Positions 4,809-14,906 of a stretch of 42,955 nt of DNA are shown piece after piece. The stretch comes from Nitrospirota bacterium. Its GTDB lineage: Bacteria > Nitrospirota > Leptospirillia > Leptospirillales > Leptospirillaceae. Position 1 is the first letter of the stretch. The number at the start of each line of letters is the position of its first letter. The notes under the pieces were generated by a model. It worked only from the letters and a program-made list of their open reading frames with translations. It was not told the origin of the DNA and made no database searches. The stretch covers positions 1 through 42,955 of the forward strand of contig JAKARS010000003.1 in assembly GCA_021828375.1 (NCBI GenBank), written 5' to 3'. The position numbers and the translations under genes are program-made.

Positions 4809-7800
4809 TCATTGTCCGAAGTCGATGAGCGCGCGCATCTCCTCAAGAGACAATGCGTCGCCTCCCCCGGTCAGGGACTCCTCCCCGTCGAGAAGACGGG
4901 AAAAGATATCCCGCTTGACCTTTTTCAAATCCTGGACCCTCTCCTCGACCGTCCCTCGGACAAGAAATCGATAAATGAAGACCGATCGGGTTTGGCCGAT
5001 CCGATGGGAGCGGTCGGAGGCCTGGGCCTCGACCTGGGGATTCCACCAGGGGTCATAGTGAAAGACGTAGTCGGCCTTTGTGAGAGTGAGCCCCACCCCT
5101 CCGGCCTTGAGGCTTGAAAGGAAGACCCGGGGGGAGTCGGGGGCATCGCTCTGGAAGAGGGCCACTCTCGTCTGTCGTTCGGGGATGGGGGTCGAGCCGT
5201 CGAGGCGGACCGTCGAAATCCCCAGAGAGGGAAGGGCCTCCTCGAAGAGGTCGAGCATGCCGGTGAACTGGCTGAAGAGGAGGATCTTGTGTCCCTCCTC
5301 GACGCCTTCGGCAATCTTGTCGAGGGCCAGAAGGAACTTGGAGGAGTGCCCCCTTTTTCCCCGAAGCTCGGGGGGGAGGAGCCCCGGATGGCAGGCCTGC
5401 TGTCTGAGGCGCAGAAGGAGCGTGAGATAGGCCATCCGCAGGGGGGCTCCCTCGACCTCACCCATCTGTTCGATCTGACGGCGAGCCTCGCTCTTGATCT
5501 CGTGGACATGGAGGAGTTCGTCCTCGGTGGGATCGACCCAGATCTCCACCTCCATCTTGGGGGGGAGATCTCTCAGAACCATCTCCTTGGTTCGACGGAG
5601 AATCAGGGGAGAGACGAGATTCCGGAGGAGGGTGATTCTCCTGTTTCGCTCCTCTCCCGAGGTCTCCTCCCTCAGGAATCGCCGTTCAAACTGGCTCCGG
5701 GAGCCAAGAAGACCTGGCATAAGAAGGGCAAAGAGACCCCAAAGGTCGGTCAGATGGTTTTCGACCGGTGTTCCGGTGACGGCTATCCTGATGCGCGCCG
5801 GGATCTGCGACAGGGACTTGTGGATCAGTGAGTCCGGGTTTTTGACCTGGTGGGCTTCGTCCATGACAAGCGAGGCAAAGGGGGGGCCTTGGGCAAGCTG
5901 GGGATCGTTTCTGAGGGTCCCGTAAGTCGTCAGGATGAGGTCGGGGGGGGAGGCCAGGGCCTGGAATCGCTTCCAGCGATCGGGACCGGCATGAAGGTGA
6001 AGGAGAGTCCCGGGGCAAAAACGCTGGGCCTCGTGGGCCCAGTTATAAAGGAGCGAGGCCGGAAGTGCCACAAGCGGAGGCCGATCTTCGGGAGAAAAAC
6101 GGCCCGTCAGCTTTTGCATCAGAAGAAAACCCAGGACGCTGATGGTCTTCCCCAGCCCCATCTCGTCGGCCAGGATCCCCGAGAGATTCTCCCGGGCGAG
6201 AGAGTGAAGAAAGGAAACCGCCTCCTTCTGATAGGGGCGGAGAGAGGCGGAAAAGATCTGGGAGAGGCGTTCGAAGTCGTCCCCGGGCACCGGCGTCGGC
6301 GCAAAGGGGGAGAGATCCATCGTCGGCGACGGGGCAAAGGGAAGGTCCGGTCGGAGAAGGTGGAGCATTGACACATAATAGCGGGAGGCTTGGGTCTGGC
6401 CGTTCCCGTCGAGGGGGAAAAGTTGTCGGATCTCCTCCTCCTGCCGGCGCTCCGGACCTTCGAGGTAGACCGAGGGGCCGTGGGGGAGAGGGAGGAGGGG
6501 GGAGTCCTCCTCCCCCTTTTTGCGTCCGGGCAGGGGATAGGCTCCCGTTGTTGTCAGGAGTCGGGCTGTGACACGTATCTGGTCGTCCCCTTCCGCGAAA
6601 AGGTCCAGAGTCAGGGAGACGGGGCCTCCGATGATCTCGTCCCCGAAGAGCTCGCCCCGGTCGATCGTGAATCCCGCCGCCTCCAGCGCCGGAAGCGTTC
6701 GATCGAGGACCGGGGCCACATCGGCCCGCTGCACCGGAATTCTCTCTCCGCTGTGGGAGAGCCGGGCGATCTTTTCAAAGACATTCCGGAAGTACAGTTC
6801 CCTCTCCCGATCCCGGGAGATCAGCCGGACCCTGTTGCCGTCGCTGTCTGAAAGATAGTCCCCCAGGCGATGCCGATCGGGGCCGAAAAGGGGCAGGGAG
6901 ATCCGGTCGGAGTACCGAATTTCCGGACGCAGGGAAAGCCCTCCCTCGCTCAACCCTTCGATGCGAACGACGGGGGGGGCCGTCTTTCCGGAGCGATAGT
7001 CCGGTGCCATCTCGGGAGGATTGAAGGCGAGGAGGGCCGAGATGTCCGCTCCCTGACGTTCCGGATCGAGAAGGGGCATCCATTCGGCCGGGGTCAGGGA
7101 GTCTCCCCTCAAGGCGCGATCCACAAGACGCATGGTGGGTGCGGAAAGGGGAGGATCGGGAACAAAAAACCGGATCTTCCCTTCTCCGCAGACGATGGCG
7201 GTCTCCCCGAAGGAGAAAAAAAGATGGCTTTTGAGGGAAAGCGGTCCTTCTGGGGAGTCGATGGCCGCATGAAGACGAAGTCGGTCTCCCGGATCTCCGG
7301 CCCACTCCCCTGTCATTCGAAGGTGGGGAGGAGGCGAGGGGGGAAGGACCCGGTAAGGGGAGCGGGTGCGGGCCGAGAGAACCGGGAGGCCGTCCCTGAG
7401 AAGGGCCAAAAGGGCGTCCGCCCCCCCCCTTCGGGGGCGAAATCCCCGGAGCGTGTGTTCCGGCCTCTGGGCAGTGAACGGGACGAATGCGGCGGCAAAG
7501 AGGGCCGTGACGGGCGGAAGGGACTCCCCCTCCCTGACCTGTTGGGTCAGCTGTGCGAACTCCTCCGGCGAGAGGAGGTCTCCGCTGTCCTTGAGGGCCA
7601 CAAAAAGGGGGGCCTCCCGATGTCCCGTCAGGACAAGGGCCGTGATCCGTGGGGAGGAGCGTCGGGAGGGCCGGACAAGTCGGGACGGCGATGGGGGGGA
7701 GGGAGGCCCCGATTCTCCGGGAGTCCCGGTGGCTCGGGGAGCTTTTTCTCTCAGGATTTCGAGGGTGGCAATCGCGTGGGGACAGGGGAGATCCGCCTCG

Positions 7801-8015
7801 ATTCCGCACAGGGGACAGGTGCAAAGAAGATCCTTCGGCGACTGCCAAAGGATGATCTTTGCAGGAGCCGATCCGTCGGAGAGGGTGAAGATGACGGCGA
7901 TCCGGTCGGAGCTCATTCCTTCGGGGGGAATCTCGACGGTGGCCCGGGGGATCAGTCGGCGGGCCGCCGAAAGCTCAAGAGGGGAGAATCTCCGGGATAA
8001 AAGGGGGTGATTCAT
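4809..8015 (-). CDS. SNF2/SWI2-family ATPase with N-terminal SWIM zinc finger
   Basis: A 1068-residue superfamily 2 DNA translocase of the bacterial SNF2 type. A SWIM zinc finger lies near the N-terminus (C65-x-C67-x10-C78-x-H80), followed by a roughly 500-residue region of unclear fold, then the two RecA-like lobes. Walker A is ADEMGLGKT (about 610-620) and the DEAH box is MDEAHQVKNP (about 718). Motif III is VTGTPVEN. The C-terminal lobe has LFSQFTGMLD, GGVGLTLTKAD and QASDRSHRIGQTR (about 970-1010). Such proteins move on double-stranded DNA and are thought to remodel protein-DNA or transcription complexes; the exact role of SWIM-SNF2 bacterial members is unknown. It starts at ATG 8015, 15 bases after the small membrane protein gene, so both are probably on the transcript that begins at or above cheZ. 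Confidence 0.93.
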   Translation of the reverse strand: MNHPLLSRRFSPLELSAARRLIPRATVEIPPEGMSSDRIAVIFTLSDGSAPAKIILWQSPKDLLCTCPLCGIEADLPCPHAIATLEILREKAPRATGTPGESGPPSPPSPSRLVRPSRRSSPRITALVLTGHREAPLFVALKDSGDLLSPEEFAQLTQQVREGESLPPVTALFAAAFVPFTAQRPEHTLRGFRPRRGGADALLALLRDGLPVLSARTRSPYRVLPPSPPPHLRMTGEWAGDPGDRLRLHAAIDSPEGPLSLKSHLFFSFGETAIVCGEGKIRFFVPDPPLSAPTMRLVDRALRGDSLTPAEWMPLLDPERQGADISALLAFNPPEMAPDYRSGKTAPPVVRIEGLSEGGLSLRPEIRYSDRISLPLFGPDRHRLGDYLSDSDGNRVRLISRDRERELYFRNVFEKIARLSHSGERIPVQRADVAPVLDRTLPALEAAGFTIDRGELFGDEIIGGPVSLTLDLFAEGDDQIRVTARLLTTTGAYPLPGRKKGEEDSPLLPLPHGPSVYLEGPERRQEEEIRQLFPLDGNGQTQASRYYVSMLHLLRPDLPFAPSPTMDLSPFAPTPVPGDDFERLSQIFSASLRPYQKEAVSFLHSLARENLSGILADEMGLGKTISVLGFLLMQKLTGRFSPEDRPPLVALPASLLYNWAHEAQRFCPGTLLHLHAGPDRWKRFQALASPPDLILTTYGTLRNDPQLAQGPPFASLVMDEAHQVKNPDSLIHKSLSQIPARIRIAVTGTPVENHLTDLWGLFALLMPGLLGSRSQFERRFLREETSGEERNRRITLLRNLVSPLILRRTKEMVLRDLPPKMEVEIWVDPTEDELLHVHEIKSEARRQIEQMGEVEGAPLRMAYLTLLLRLRQQACHPGLLPPELRGKRGHSSKFLLALDKIAEGVEEGHKILLFSQFTGMLDLFEEALPSLGISTVRLDGSTPIPERQTRVALFQSDAPDSPRVFLSSLKAGGVGLTLTKADYVFHYDPWWNPQVEAQASDRSHRIGQTRSVFIYRFLVRGTVEERVQDLKKVKRDIFSRLLDGEESLTGGGDALSLEEMRALIDFGQ

Positions 8016-8030
8016 GGGGGCCGACGTTCC

Positions 8031-8474
8031 CTAGCGGGAGGCGTTGATCTCCGAGATCAGGAGAACCGCAGAAAAGAGGAATCCCACAACAAAGGCTCCC
8101 CCGATCAGGAGAAGGGCCCGTGTCGTATCCTTCTTGCGGGATTCGGGGCTTCTGACCGAGGCCGTGAGGTGGTCGGCAGAAATGAGGGTCCGCCCGAGAA
8201 GGCCGTCGACCACGCAAAAGGAGGCCATGGCCTGGATCAGGGAGAGGGCCGTCCCCGTGGCGAGGAGGACCATTCCGGCGGCATAGAGGGCCGGATGGGA
8301 AAAGACAAGTCGCCACTTTTCGTTGTAGATGACGACGAAGACAAGTCCTGCGAAGGCCCCGGCTCCCCGGATCCATCGCCCTTTCCGGTCGATGTTGCAG
8401 ACCCCGGGAATGTAGGTGTCGGTGCTCTGGGCGGGTCTTTCGGAAGATCTCTGTCCAAACTCTTCATCTTTCAT
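8031..8474 (-). CDS. Small multi-pass membrane protein (VCNI/FC family), function unknown
   Basis: A 147-residue protein with a polar N-terminus, then YIPGVCNIDRKGR (21-33), hydrophobic segments at about 38-52, 62-84 and 119-141, and SFCVVDGLLG (85-94). The pairing of an N-terminal 'VCNI' motif with a later 'FC...G' motif recalls a widespread, unnamed family of small bacterial membrane proteins related in style to DUF2892; I do not know a function for it. Both Cys (26 and 87) lie beside membrane segments and could bind metal or form a thiol pair. The ATG at 8474 overlaps the LexA-like gene's stop by 11 bases and the SNF2 gene follows after 15 bases, so it is in their operon. Confidence 0.7.
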   Translation of the reverse strand: MKDEEFGQRSSERPAQSTDTYIPGVCNIDRKGRWIRGAGAFAGLVFVVIYNEKWRLVFSHPALYAAGMVLLATGTALSLIQAMASFCVVDGLLGRTLISADHLTASVRSPESRKKDTTRALLLIGGAFVVGFLFSAVLLISEINASR

Positions 8475-9150
8475 CGAGGGGGTCCTTTCCCGGAAGGCAG
8501 GGGGCGGTATCGTCCGGAAGAAGAGGGCGAATGAGGCCGACGACGCGTCCCCGGATCCGCTGGATCAAGTCCTTTTTTCTCAGTTCATGGCGATTGGCCG
8601 TCTCTCCGGGGAGAGTCAGGGCAAAGAGTCCATACTTTTTGGAGACAATTCCCAAGGTCAGTGTCCCCTGAAGGGGGTCTTCGACAACAACGATGTCTCC
8701 CGCGGCAGGCGCCCATTCCGGAGATTGTTCGACAAAGAGGATGTCCCGGCGGTCAATTTTCTTGTCGGGGAAGCGGACATCGGTGTCGAGGCGAAAGGCA
8801 AAATCGGGAGAGGCCCCCAAAAGGGTGCATGAAACAGGCACGGTTGTCTCCGGAAGCTCCCCGGAGTTCTTCCCCCTGATCAGGGGAATCTCTCTTGCGG
8901 GTGAAGGGATCCCCTTTTCCAGAAGATCCTCGGCGGCCCGGGTGAGGCGGATGGATCGTGCCTGGCCCGGCTCTCTTGTAATGTACCCCTTCCGGACGAG
9001 CGCTTCAATGTGCCCCAGCCCTCGCCGGCTGCTTCCGCGAGATCCCATGTGGAGGGAGAGTTCCATGATGGTGGGGGGGCGGTGCGTATGCCGGATCGTT
9101 GCGGCAATAAACTCGAGGGCTTCTCGTTGTTTTTCCGTGAGCGGGCGCAC
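8464..9150 (-). CDS. LexA-like repressor lacking the self-cleavage Ser-Lys dyad
   Basis: A 228-residue LexA homologue. The N-terminal winged helix (1-70) is well kept: PLTEKQREALEFI, then HRPPTIMELSLHMGSRG and ALVRKGYITRE. The C-terminal half follows the S24/LexA fold (ILFVEQ, AGDIVVVED, GRVVGLIRP). The catalytic features are missing: where LexA has G-M-S-M this protein reads T-D-V-R (123-126). The Lys of VTVKR is replaced in TLTLGIV (163-169), and the Ala-Gly cleavage site is replaced by GKNSGEL (93-99). It should bind DNA and dimerise but not self-cleave on RecA activation. The GTG at 9150 gives the canonical LexA start; no clear Shine-Dalgarno is visible, but the cheZ stop lies only 9 bases upstream, suggesting coupling. 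Another, cleavable LexA may exist elsewhere in the genome. Confidence 0.85.
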   Translation of the reverse strand: MRPLTEKQREALEFIAATIRHTHRPPTIMELSLHMGSRGSSRRGLGHIEALVRKGYITREPGQARSIRLTRAAEDLLEKGIPSPAREIPLIRGKNSGELPETTVPVSCTLLGASPDFAFRLDTDVRFPDKKIDRRDILFVEQSPEWAPAAGDIVVVEDPLQGTLTLGIVSKKYGLFALTLPGETANRHELRKKDLIQRIRGRVVGLIRPLLPDDTAPCLPGKDPLDER

Positions 9151-9159
9151 GGGGGGAGC

Positions 9160-10182
9160 CTAGAAGCCGAATTCGGAGAGGAGCTGGTCCACCGCACCCT
9201 GATCAATATCTCCGGTTGCTCCGACCCCTTTCAATGTCTCTGTCGGGGAGGCGGCCGATTTTGTGTCGGAGCCCTTTGGCGAAGCCCCTTCGACGGGTGT
9301 CGCGACGGGTTCGTCGGGGGACTCTTTCGGGGAAGCCTGGTTAGTCTCGATAAGAATCTGGACGAGACGGGACTCCAGGTCCCGAAGATGTCCCCCGATG
9401 AGCTTGATGTTTTGCCCCACGAGATCCTGAAAGGCCATGGCTTCGAATCCATGCATGATCCTCTCGTCGGCAGAGGAGAGGATCTCTTCGATTTTTGCCT
9501 TCTGGTCGGACTTCTTTGACTGGCCGTCGGCAAGAATCTTCCGGATCGCCTCGTGTTCCTCCAGGAGGGACTCCAGGGTATTCATCAGCTTATGGGCGGC
9601 ATCTTCCGTCATCTGGCTGATGATCTCGAGACCGTGGGAGGTCTCCGGGAGCTTGCCTTCCATGAATCGAAGGGAGTCCACCAGAGAGGCGGAAAGGGAG
9701 AGGACGCGCTGAATGTCTCTGGCTGTTTGTCCCACTTGCTGAATCAGTGTCGCGGAGGAGTCTCGTCCATCGCCCGGGTTCTGTGGGGGGACGCTTGCGG
9801 GGGCTGATGGGGAGGCTGTCCAGCCATGGGCTTCCCGAAAGACGGGGACATCAAGAACCCATGCGTCAGTCCCTTCGATTGTTCGAAGACGGGAGAGAAA
9901 GGAGAGCTCGGGGTGTGGGGATCCTTCCCCGGTGCTGTCGAAGATGCGGAGGATCCGTCCAACCCGAGGAACGGCTATGATCGCTTCCCGGCAGGAAGAG
10001 AGGGAGATTCCCTTCAGATGGCCAAGGTGTTCAGGGATCGGAAGATCGAACCATTCCTGCGGATGGCAGAGCATGGCCATCTTCTCCGCAGGAAAGTCTT
10101 TAATGGACTCGATCTTCCTGATTTCCGTCATGCGGATTCCCAGGTCGATGCCCTTGGCCAGGGGAAATGTCATGATCTGCAT
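9160..10182 (-). CDS. cheZ: CheZ-type CheY-P phosphatase with N-terminal extension
   Basis: A 340-residue protein whose residues from about 140 on are CheZ: a long helical hairpin with the catalytic motif AFQDLVGQNIKLI (D253, Q257), followed by an acidic/Pro linker and the terminal CheY-binding peptide VDQLLSEFGF, much like E. coli CheZ 'VDDLLDSLGF'. CheZ removes the phosphate from CheY and so resets flagellar rotation. The first 120 residues are an additional region unlike E. coli CheZ (214 aa), with alternating hydrophobic segments (GISLSSCREAIIAVPRVGRILRI) that look like a small beta-containing domain; I do not recognise it. ATG at 10182 is preceded by GGAAGGAAG. It heads the run cheZ, lexA-like, membrane protein, SNF2 and is the only CheZ in view; the chemoreceptor gene lies just upstream. 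Confidence 0.85.
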   Translation of the reverse strand: MQIMTFPLAKGIDLGIRMTEIRKIESIKDFPAEKMAMLCHPQEWFDLPIPEHLGHLKGISLSSCREAIIAVPRVGRILRIFDSTGEGSPHPELSFLSRLRTIEGTDAWVLDVPVFREAHGWTASPSAPASVPPQNPGDGRDSSATLIQQVGQTARDIQRVLSLSASLVDSLRFMEGKLPETSHGLEIISQMTEDAAHKLMNTLESLLEEHEAIRKILADGQSKKSDQKAKIEEILSSADERIMHGFEAMAFQDLVGQNIKLIGGHLRDLESRLVQILIETNQASPKESPDEPVATPVEGASPKGSDTKSAASPTETLKGVGATGDIDQGAVDQLLSEFGF

Positions 10183-10310: not shown

Positions 10311-10356
10311 GGTGAACATTTCCCGTTAGGTTAGCATATTTTGGGGGGAGACTTCA

Positions 10357-11611: not shown

Positions 11612-12034
11612 CTAGTGCGGGGACAATCTCTGGATTGTCCCCTTTTGGCAGGAGAGGAAGGAGAGGGAGTGAACCTTGATCATATAGGAGTTTTCTCCCG
11701 CCTTCAGTCGGACCTCTCCCTCGATCGGGCACATGGTGGTCGGAGCTGACCTCAGGTGGTAGGCTCCGGGGGAAAGGTCGTAGGAAAACCGACCGTCGGT
11801 GCGTGTCAGAAACTCAATCTCGGTTCCCGGGCGACTCTTGTCCGAGAGAAAAAGGGCGGCCCGGGAGACCGGGTGGCCTTTCCAGAGCATGACTCCCTCA
11901 AAGCGGGCTTTCGAGGGGGGAGGAGAGGGAGTGTGGGAGACTGATTGACAGGAGAGGGGCAAGAGAAGAAGGGCTCCTGCAAGCATTCGGAAAAGGGACG
12001 GGGAGGGTCGAAGGGAGTGTCGGTTCGTCAGCAT
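11612..12034 (-). CDS. Predicted lipoprotein with carboxypeptidase-regulatory-like domain
   Basis: A 140-residue exported lipoprotein. Residues 1-29 form a signal peptide with basic start, hydrophobic core and lipobox LPLSC (C29). A Ser/Pro linker (30-41) precedes a small beta-sandwich of the kind seen in carboxypeptidase regulatory-like / transthyretin-like domains: [56 protein letters not shown]. Two more Cys are at 102 and 129. The ATG overlaps the MNIO gene's stop by one base (TGATG), so the two are translated together; the pair may act in one process. I do not know what it binds; substrate or anchoring partner of the MNIO enzyme is only a guess. Confidence 0.75.
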
Positions 12035-13413
12035 CAGGGATCTCCATTGTAAAGGTGTTGGGCATGAAGGAGCGACTGGGCCTCCCGATGCCGGGTCTCC
12101 CGCAGCGAGAGGGGAATCTCAGGGTGTGTTTTCGCCAGATGGTCGATCCAGTTTCCCGCCCTTCGGATCTTGATCTCGAGAAAGTCTTCGCCGGGCCGGT
12201 TTTCATGGGGTGCCCGGTTGAAATAGTCCACAAAGGAGGCGCGGACATCGACTCCGGATCCCCTGAGAAGCGCGAGTGTTTCCGGGAAGAGTTCTTCCAT
12301 GTTGCCGCCAAACTCCCAGATTTCCTGGCGATACAGATGTTGGCTATAGGGAGAGGGGCGTTCTCCGGAAAGATCCCGGGCGAGATCGCGGTAGCCTTCA
12401 CGGACCCGATCCCGGTCGGCGGATGAGAGGGGGGGGCCGGAAGGGAGTGCCGGGGGAAGGGGAAAGCCTCCCGGCTTGGCATGATGTCTGACAATGTCAC
12501 GAAAACGGGCGAATTCCTTTGCGGCCTGTCGGCTCCCCTTGTTGTCGACCTCGAGGGCCACTCCCTGAAGTGCGGGAAGGGGAAGCCGGGAGAGTGCCGC
12601 CTCGAGAAGGTCAAAAAGGGCCTCCGGCAATGGGCTGGAGTGATCATCGACGGGCCAGGAGTGGCCGTCGAGAGAAAGGAATTGCAGGCCTCCGGCATGG
12701 ATCTCGACGACCCTTTCCAGGGGAAATCCTCGAAGCCAGGCAAGAATGGAGGGAGTGTCGACGGGGCACCCTGAAGCGGCAAGATAGGTCAGGCAATGTC
12801 CGAGGTCAAGACCGATGGCAAGTGGCGTTCCCTGGGTGAGGGTCCTGAAAAAATCTCCGAGATCCATCTCTCCCGGAGGATGGGGGGGAAAGGGGGGAGT
12901 CTCGACCAGAAGAAGTCGTCCCTCCATGGCCTGTGAGAGAGTCAGTGCCCCCTCCCGGGCGACCCGGGCCCCTTCGGGGGTCAGAAGGGGGGGGGCATAG
13001 AGACCAAAGTCAAACCCTTCCATGGATTTCTGGGCACATTCGTGGATCATCCAGGGGGACCGGAGAGCCTCCATGTGGCGACAGGCCCGCCGCTCCTCCT
13101 CCCTGAAATCCGGATCGGTCGAATAGCTTGGCTGGGTATACCACAGGCAATCCCCATGATAGGTCAGGGGAAGGGTCGGAGGAAGCTGCCCCCGGAGCTC
13201 CCGAAGGTCGACGGTCCTCCCCCGGAAGATCTCGAGATAGTCCGGGGGCGATTCTTCCAGATGCGCGATGAGCTCGGCAACGGGAGGAAAGTAGAGATCG
13301 GTGGAGAGTCCTGCAAGGGGCCGGTCGCCGGGGGCGATCAAGGGCACGACATCAGTCTCCGGAGTCAGGGGCATGACGGAGGTCTCATCCTGGGGAGGTG
13401 CCGGGGGGCCCAT
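12034..13413 (-). CDS. MNIO (DUF692) family multinuclear iron oxidase with C-terminal partner-like domain
   Basis: A 459-residue protein. Residues about 30-315 form the DUF692 TIM barrel, the family of MbnB, TglH and BufB that modify Cys in ribosomal peptides with multi-iron sites. Likely ligands seen: YHGDCLW (H86), IHE (H124, E125), VET (E171), GLDLGHCLTY (D203, H206), VEIHAGG (H239), WPVDDHSS (D257, H258) and LEVDN (E288). Residues 330-459 form an additional segment, SQHLYRQEIWEFGGNMEELFP, then VDYFNRAP and AGNWIDHL, then LRETRHREAQSLLHA. This resembles the usually separate DUF2063/BufC-type partner ('YRNNV..L...FP', 'YF..HP', 'G..F..FL', 'L.R.EWA'). No precursor peptide gene was recognised next to it. 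The start at ATG 13413 has only GGGGGA close by and is less sure. It is divergent from the TetR operon and coupled to the lipoprotein. Confidence 0.8.
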   Translation of the reverse strand: MGPPAPPQDETSVMPLTPETDVVPLIAPGDRPLAGLSTDLYFPPVAELIAHLEESPPDYLEIFRGRTVDLRELRGQLPPTLPLTYHGDCLWYTQPSYSTDPDFREEERRACRHMEALRSPWMIHECAQKSMEGFDFGLYAPPLLTPEGARVAREGALTLSQAMEGRLLLVETPPFPPHPPGEMDLGDFFRTLTQGTPLAIGLDLGHCLTYLAASGCPVDTPSILAWLRGFPLERVVEIHAGGLQFLSLDGHSWPVDDHSSPLPEALFDLLEAALSRLPLPALQGVALEVDNKGSRQAAKEFARFRDIVRHHAKPGGFPLPPALPSGPPLSSADRDRVREGYRDLARDLSGERPSPYSQHLYRQEIWEFGGNMEELFPETLALLRGSGVDVRASFVDYFNRAPHENRPGEDFLEIKIRRAGNWIDHLAKTHPEIPLSLRETRHREAQSLLHAQHLYNGDP

Positions 13414-13542: not shown

Positions 13543-13566
13543 TTAATTAATTGGTCAATTAATTAA
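13543..13566. promoter_or_regulatory. Perfect palindromic operator, likely TetR binding site
   Basis: The arms TTAATTAATTG and CAATTAATTAA are exact reverse complements around a GT centre (24 bases). The A/T-only arms stand out in a G+C-rich genome. It begins one base after the -10 box, covers the expected transcription start and ends next to the Shine-Dalgarno AAGGGG, so a bound repressor would block the promoter. Autoregulation by the adjacent TetR protein is the natural reading. Confidence 0.75.
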
Positions 13567-13575
13567 GGGGTGAAT

Positions 13576-14313
13576 ATGGCGAGTCCAGCCGATGGGAAAA
13601 AAGAGGGGAAGGTGATCCATGAGGGAAGCTCCGACCCTCTGGAAAAGTCATCCCAACGAAAGCGGGAGATCCTCGAGGCCGCCATGGTGTGTTTTTCCGA
13701 GGAGGGTTATTTTCAGACCACCAACCGGAAGATTGCCCGCAAGGCGGGAATTACGGAGGGGCTGATCTACCATTACTTCCCCTGCAAGAAGGCCCTTCTT
13801 CAGGAAATCATCGAGGAGAAGTTCCGCCATGACCGCTCCCCGGCGCAGCGGTGCTACACCCGCTGGGAGGCGAGATTCGAGATCTCCCCCCCGACCCGGG
13901 AGACCTTCCGGGACTTTCTTTTCGATCTCGGCCGGGCCACCTTTGAAGGCCTGGACAAGGATCGGGATGTCCTTCGCATCCTCCTGTCGGAATATCGACT
14001 CCTCGATGAAGGCCAGGAGCCCCTGTTCCCCCGCCTTGTGATGGAACGTTCGATGAACCGCTTTTCCCGCCTTCTCGCGCTGTATCTTGCGGCAGAAAGC
14101 CTTCCGGACTCCTCCACGGCGATGAAGGACTCGTTTTTCATCGGTCCGATCGTCTCCATCTTCCTTTTTCAGGATCTCCTTCAGGGCAACAAGGTCCGCA
14201 CTCTCGACCGGGAGCTTTTTCTGTCGACTCTCGTCGATCACTTCATGGCCGGGATCGCTGCGATGCCGGTGGGAAAACAGGATAAAAAATCAGGGAAGGA
14301 TTCTTCAAGATGA
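13576..14313 (+). CDS. TetR-family transcriptional regulator of the efflux operon
   Basis: A 245-residue TetR/AcrR repressor. The DNA-binding helix-turn-helix is at about 28-75: REILEAAMVCFSEEGYFQTTNRKIARKAGITEGLIYHYFPCKKALL (shown here in pieces as REILEAAMVCF, TTNRKIARKAGI and GLIYHYF). The rest is a helical ligand-binding domain too variable to name a ligand. ATG at 13576 has AAGGGG five bases upstream; a GTG at 13570 is possible but its spacing is poor. It is the first gene of the operon, and its TGA overlaps the cytochrome start (ATGA). A perfect palindrome covering its own promoter implies self-repression relieved by a compound that the pump probably exports. Confidence 0.92.
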   Translation: MASPADGKKEGKVIHEGSSDPLEKSSQRKREILEAAMVCFSEEGYFQTTNRKIARKAGITEGLIYHYFPCKKALLQEIIEEKFRHDRSPAQRCYTRWEARFEISPPTRETFRDFLFDLGRATFEGLDKDRDVLRILLSEYRLLDEGQEPLFPRLVMERSMNRFSRLLALYLAAESLPDSSTAMKDSFFIGPIVSIFLFQDLLQGNKVRTLDRELFLSTLVDHFMAGIAAMPVGKQDKKSGKDSSR

Positions 14314-14906
14314 GAAAAATGCGTCAGGCGCTCGTGGGGATCCTGCTTCTTCTCCTGGCAGGGGGAGGGGTTGTTCTCGAGGCGGTCCATGCCCGGGCCG
14401 ACTCCGTCATGCACCGGTATGTCGGAGTGGAGACCTGCGAGGTTTGCCACTCGGCCAAGAGAATCGGCGACCAGTTCGATGCCTGGGCCGGAAGTCCCCA
14501 TGCCCGCGCCTATGCCGACCTGACGACCTCCCAGGCTCGCGCCATTGCCGATCGCCTTCATGTGGCCGATCCCACCCGCGATGGACGCTGCCTCTCCTGC
14601 CATGTGACCGCGTATGGCAAACCTCTTCCGGAAGTTCTCTCGACCTTCCGAAGAACAGATGGGGTCCAGTGCGAATCCTGTCACGGTCCCGGCGAGGATT
14701 ATGCCCACTTTTCGGTCATGATTTCCCCGAAAAAATCAAAAAGGGCAGGAGTCGTCATTCCTGACGAGGCGACCTGCAAGACCTGTCACAACCCGAGTTC
14801 TCCCACCTATAAAGGGTTCGACTACCATGCGGCCCTACGGATGATTGCCCATCCTGTTCCAGAAGAAACAAAGCGGGAAACTCTTGAAATGGGAGACGAA
14901 AAATGA
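14310..14906 (+). CDS. Tetrahaem c-type cytochrome (c554 family), exported
   Basis: A 198-residue protein with an N-terminal signal or anchor (hydrophobic 8-25, AHARADS near 27-32 as possible cleavage zone) and four CxxCH haem sites: CEVCH 43-47, CLSCH 94-98, CESCH 121-125 and CKTCH 156-160. The opening YVGVETCEVCH followed by WAGSPHARAYADL is typical of the cytochrome c554 family; extra His such as H64, H133 and H173 can serve as distal ligands. It would work in the periplasm as an electron carrier. It is locked into the efflux operon: ATGA overlaps with tetR before it and the HlyD gene after it. A redox role in handling the exported compound, or in sensing damage, is inference; c554 proteins otherwise serve respiratory electron transfer. 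Confidence 0.9.
   Translation: MRKMRQALVGILLLLLAGGGVVLEAVHARADSVMHRYVGVETCEVCHSAKRIGDQFDAWAGSPHARAYADLTTSQARAIADRLHVADPTRDGRCLSCHVTAYGKPLPEVLSTFRRTDGVQCESCHGPGEDYAHFSVMISPKKSKRAGVVIPDEATCKTCHNPSSPTYKGFDYHAALRMIAHPVPEETKRETLEMGDEK

Follow-up and report, generated by a model that had tools for sequence, protein, structure and literature searches.

Within the window, by which we mean the whole stretch of 42,955 nucleotides that was analysed, lies the gene for a LexA protein that has lost the residues needed for self-cleavage. We introduce the name lexB for this B-type LexA gene and propose that it is the chromosomal B-type LexA of Leptospirillaceae, that self-cleavage was lost in one genus, and that the product would now serve as a constitutive or otherwise tuned repressor outside the SOS response, with the LexA of a PolB cassette sensing damage wherever that cassette is present; we put the probability of this reading at about three in four. 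It is very likely that the lexB product still controls genes, no longer as an alarm for DNA damage.

The lexB product and its lost cleavage residues

On the minus strand at positions 8464–9150, lexB encodes 228 amino acids from a GTG start and was identified as a cleavage-dead LexA orthologue through profile matches and residue alignments. The first-pass annotation had described the DNA-binding domain as intact, and the Pfam profile LexA_DNA_bind (PF01726) bears this out, matching residues 1–65 at 1.4e-13 with 50.8 bits against a cut-off of 23.7. Pfam, structural alignment and omega values together define a winged-helix DNA-binding domain over residues 1–70 (8941–9150, minus strand), and structural alignment, the residue table and omega values define a C-terminal domain over residues 86–212 (8515–8895, minus strand) with a predicted LexA fold that is devoid of the catalytic dyad. 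The Pfam profile Peptidase_S24 found no match in the lexB product, either at E≤1 or at 0.01; it was matched at 0.01 in 10 of the 17 rows of row set A1. The NCBIfam lexA profile (TIGR00498) covers residues 1–208 with 69.1 bits, under its cut-off of 110.95, and gives 168.2 for a sister orthologue (L168) and 180.2 and 197.5 for two canonical copies. The lexB product is a LexA-family protein by common descent with cleavable LexA, and on this synteny and the tree agree.

The predicted structure is consistent with this assignment. An AlphaFold2 model built with 34 sequences reached a mean pLDDT of 82.5 and a pTM of 0.55, with a C-terminal tail of low confidence that begins near residue 210, and its best Foldseek matches were LexA chains. 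Aligned as a whole with VIA-align, the model matched a chain of a LexA–DNA complex with a Z of 13.3 and an rmsd of 12.2 over 190, a large value that probably reflects the placement of the domains; taken singly, the DNA-binding domain matched 1lea (Z 11.7, 1.6 Å over 72 residues) and the C-terminal domain matched 1jhc (Z 11.5, 3.7 Å over 122 residues). Judged from the model, then, the C-terminal domain retains the LexA fold.

The residues on which self-cleavage depends were mapped by alignment, with key residues of E. coli LexA numbered as in the published accounts (PMC3091678, PMC7567884). Arg126 (codon 8773–8775, minus strand) occupies the position of the catalytic Ser119, and Gly167 (codon 8650–8652, minus strand) occupies that of the catalytic Lys156; at the scissile pair, Ser96 stands in place of Ala84 and Gly97 aligns with Gly85 (codons 8860–8865, minus strand). 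Directly behind this site, six residues of the cleavable orthologues are deleted. The mapping was stable across five MAFFT settings on 63 sequences, and it agrees with the family profile aligned to the E. coli and Thermotoga LexA chains of solved structures. It had been claimed from the first reading that Ser, Lys and the Ala-Gly bond are all replaced, and in the window's protein the five alignments uphold this for Ser, Lys and the scissile Ala; the scissile Gly, in the form of Gly97, is still present. We also sought an alignment that would place a Ser and a Lys in the active site, and no alignment placed them there. The sequence evidence supports a loss of cleavage in the lexB product well, and we infer that the protein would not be cleaved.

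Orthologues, gene neighbourhood and selection

LexA types were sought in 60 relatives as well as the genome that holds the window, and in 21 genomes of the family; most of the genomes searched are incomplete drafts, and the genus is represented by 14 genomes of Leptospirillaceae MAGs. Two types occur in the family: the B type, to which lexB belongs, and a canonical A type. The B-type gene is present in 13 of the 14 genus genomes, with no copy found in G010, and all 13 copies can be read as open frames. The A type was found in 11 of the 14 and was not detected in G004, in G011 or in G000, the genome of the window. Among the seven family genomes outside the genus, six carry the B type (all except G016) and two carry the A type (G016 and G018).

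The residue table, from which the genus copies L006 and L011 were left out, shows how far the loss extends. The Lys is gone from all 11 genus B rows (ten Gly, one Tyr), as is the Ala-Gly pair, and the six-residue deletion is likewise found in 11 of 11; the catalytic Ser was not lost throughout the genus, being kept in six of the 11 rows. A motif scan of L006 and L011 found neither GxSM nor the Lys motif. In the B rows of the sister genera, by comparison, Ala-Gly, Ser, Lys and the six residues are intact in six of six. Because all the genus rows lack the Lys, the Ala-Gly pair and the loop, and all the syntenic sister orthologues retain them, these losses can be placed on the stem of the genus; hence the Ser would have drifted later, in some lines of the genus. 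Since the active-site losses recur in all the related genus copies, and in open reading frames, they are more than chance, and the loss of the active site is not a private error of the window's genome.

A tree of 58 LexA rows recovers the genus B rows as one group (support 100/100), and likewise the sister B rows (99/92) and the A rows (100/98). The two B groups are set apart from the remaining 39 rows by a branch supported at 100/99, to be read with the length of the genus B branch, 1.17 changes per column, in mind and with the program's warning that a long-branch join may be false. Synteny independently supports the same reading, and the genus and sister B types are thus orthologues: the order of lexB, a membrane-type protein gene (8031–8474, minus strand) and an SNF2-family helicase gene (4809–8015, minus strand; Pfam) is kept in the genus and sister loci. 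The membrane-type gene adjoins lexB in the genus and the sister genera; its overlap with the lexB end is 11 bp in the window and 4 bp in the sister loci L168 and L169. Its product is strongly conserved, with no confident family match; small proteins encoded beside lexA can be division inhibitors. On the other side, lexB is preceded in the genus by cheZ and in the sisters by nuo-type (NADH-dehydrogenase) genes, the latter labelled by reading the sequences. In the window, the cheZ homologue (9160–10182, minus strand; ORF list and Pfam) lies directly upstream, with nine bases between its stop and the start of lexB.

A fuller history can be sketched tentatively, although we consider it doubtful as a whole: the original chromosomal LexA may have been relieved of its SOS duty by the cassette LexA, lost cleavage in the ancestor of the genus, moved behind cheZ and become a non-SOS regulator whose output depends on the cheZ promoter or on the neighbouring membrane protein, with motility or respiration under its control.

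Selection was estimated as omega from simple pairwise Nei-Gojobori dN/dS values with bootstrap intervals. For the DNA-binding domain of lexB, six of the seven genus pairs fell at 0.02–0.05; the remaining pair, two close copies with few differences, gave 0.11. Omega for the C-terminal domain ranged from 0.18 to 0.68 among genus pairs, with a bootstrap interval below 1 in six of the seven and one that extends above 1 in a single close pair. The most distant pair, the window against L077, stands outside these ranges with 0.19 and 0.46. For the cleavable sister orthologues, the C-terminal domain gave 0.03–0.08 in the three of five pairs with usable dS; saturated dS left two of the five pairs without a value for this domain and three of the five without one for the DNA-binding domain. 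For the DNA-binding domain of the canonical A-type copies of the genus, three pairs gave 0.07–0.16 and a further pair, nearly identical in sequence, gave 0.34; their C-terminal domain gave 0.08–0.17. The DNA-reading half of lexB is fully constrained, and its C-terminal half is relaxed without being free, which is what one would expect of a dimerisation module released from catalysis.

These values bear on the possibility that lexB is a decaying remnant, left functionless when the cassette LexA took over the SOS response and now drifting towards loss. Such decay would agree with a C-terminal domain that evolves, relative to synonymous sites, several times faster than that of the cleavable orthologues, with an omega interval that passes 1 in one close pair and with the absence of a detectable lexB in G010. 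However, a DNA-binding domain held at 0.02–0.05 in six of seven pairs, more tightly than that of the canonical LexA encoded alongside it, and a gene preserved as an open frame in all 13 copies make decay improbable. Purifying selection on the DNA-binding domain together with a relaxed C-terminal domain instead supports the view, put forward in the first-pass annotation, of a DNA-binding regulator that is not an SOS switch.

The canonical LexA and a proposed role outside the SOS response

The first reading had also proposed a search for a second, canonical lexA, and such a gene was found in 11 of the 14 genus genomes, with the rest of its cassette recovered in the window's genome. In the A-type cassette, lexA is followed by a gene whose product has about 220 amino acids and then by the gene of a family-B DNA polymerase (loci L031–L043, and L165 on contig C50 of the window's genome). 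Pfam DNA_pol_B was matched in both of the cassette polymerases scanned, whereas neither Pfam nor NCBIfam matched the scanned copies of the protein of about 220 amino acids. The window's genome is 71.6% complete; its contig C50 takes in the PolB gene and breaks off 364 bases further on, inside the preceding gene, of which the 3' part is present. Because the contig end severs the cassette before lexA, the assembly has probably just missed the canonical lexA of this genome; a recA fragment lies at another contig end. In G004 and G011, the genome search found neither a second lexA nor PolB, and lexB could be the sole LexA of these two, or the draft genomes could miss the canonical copy.

A comparable operon has been described in Leptospirillum ferriphilum, comprising lexA, an inactivated radA, arCOG07300 and an inactivated PolB2 (LFML04_0990–0993; PMC4104785). 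Both arrangements join lexA with a family-B polymerase gene, the operon's lexA corresponds to the canonical paralogue and not to lexB, and the genus cassette looks like the same operon. The Y-family DNA polymerase (PF00817), sought for further SOS promoters, was absent from all 21 family genomes, the control being found in 11 of 14, and the PolB cassette may be what damage tolerance relies on in these bacteria.

The presence of a canonical LexA beside lexB in most genomes, and the C-terminal fold that the lexB model appears to retain, would suit a product still tied to damage by another route, whether as a heterodimer with the canonical LexA, through cleavage in trans or through damage-dependent proteolysis. 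We regard such a tie as unlikely, given that the scissile pair is altered in every aligned copy and the loop is six residues shorter, which argues against a substrate for cleavage in trans, and that the A and B types belong to different clades.

Under our preferred reading, that of a repressor acting outside the SOS response, the lexB product would keep the LexA fold, with its winged helix and C-terminal domain, and would most likely bind its operator as a dimer, as dimerisation and DNA binding in the family suggest. With no catalytic Lys, no normal scissile site and a shortened cleavage loop, it could presumably not be switched off by RecA and would thus work outside the SOS switch. Its presumed repression would be constitutive, or would depend on the level of expression, on turnover, on modification or on a partner, and damage sensing would fall to the canonical LexA in the PolB cassette where the cassette is present.

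Non-cleavable LexA as such is already known. For example, the LexA of Synechocystis sp. PCC 6803, as its published accounts describe it, has Gly-Gly for Ala-Gly and Asp for Ser and regulates genes outside the SOS response, and a tuning role has been proposed for phosphorylation at its Ser173 (PMC3091678, PMC7567884). To the extent that these accounts describe it, the Synechocystis protein shares with the lexB product the absence of Ala-Gly and of the catalytic Ser and the retention of the DNA-binding domain; the losses they name are those of Ser and Ala-Gly, whereas the genus lexB has lost the Lys throughout and has a deleted loop, belongs to another phylum, lies behind cheZ and coexists with a canonical lexA in most genomes. 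The two proteins are alike in outline, but lexB is a case independent of the Synechocystis LexA. In a literature search, which is no proof of absence in print, no described case of a LexA like the lexB product was met outside cyanobacteria. Compared to the canonical LexA of E. coli and Thermotoga maritima, the lexB product has the same domain order and, in its model, appears to share the fold of both domains, but it lacks the Ser-Lys dyad and the Ala-Gly pair and has a shortened cleavage loop. The closest relatives, the B-type LexA proteins of the sister Leptospirillaceae (L014–L019, L168 and L169), share the downstream neighbours and the side of the tree with lexB and differ in their intact cleavage residues and in the position of the gene, behind nuo-type genes instead of cheZ. 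Together, the cleavable sister orthologues, the cleavage-dead genus clade and the canonical LexA that accompanies it in most genomes form a natural before-and-after series. With this series one can study how a repressor that cleaves itself becomes another kind of regulator, and which part of LexA survives without proteolysis.

Upstream regions and operator searches

The operator-like palindrome GTGAACA..TG.TCAC is common to the A-type upstream regions. In its strict form, it occurs in nine of the 14 genus genomes, in one place each, at the cassette, and its backwards control occurs nowhere. These matches weigh on the idea that the lexB product competes with the canonical LexA on the same operators and so dampens the SOS response: it has a strongly constrained DNA-binding domain of the same family, yet its recognition-helix stretch reads SSRRGLGH against the ISAVRKHL type of the canonical copies and the strict canonical operator is found at the canonical cassette only, which renders competition highly improbable. 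Allowing one mismatch in the canonical operator did not yield a usable regulon, as there were many matches among those listed, near the control level in several genus genomes. Another candidate, the motif TTTGTACNACAA from two PolB upstream regions of sister genomes, was rejected after it proved rarer than its backwards control in ten of ten genomes with one mismatch allowed. The recA upstream regions, read at 17 of 18 loci, offered no clear operator.

An operator for the lexB product was sought by aligning the sequences in front of cheZ, mcp and the MNIO gene, and none was identified there. Upstream of cheZ lies a promoter-like element, AAATATGCTAACCTAAC (10325–10341, minus strand), which is conserved in the genus and, in the loci scanned, is present upstream of cheZ only; as a possible cheZ–lexB promoter, it may set the level of the lexB product. 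A palindrome before the MNIO gene was set aside as unrelated to lexB, since it sits where a divergently oriented TetR-family gene begins. Before the TetR-family gene (13570–14313) lies the AT-rich palindrome TTAATTAATTGACCAATTAATTAA (13543–13566), varied but conserved in most of the genus loci aligned, which is likely to be that gene's own operator. Beside the TetR-family gene, a cytochrome-type protein is encoded at 14310–14906, with a match to Cytochrome_C554. An MNIO-type (MbnB/TglH/ChrH) gene followed by an unassigned gene for 140 amino acids spans 11612–13413; the two are kept together in the genus loci compared and possibly represent a RiPP-type modification pair.
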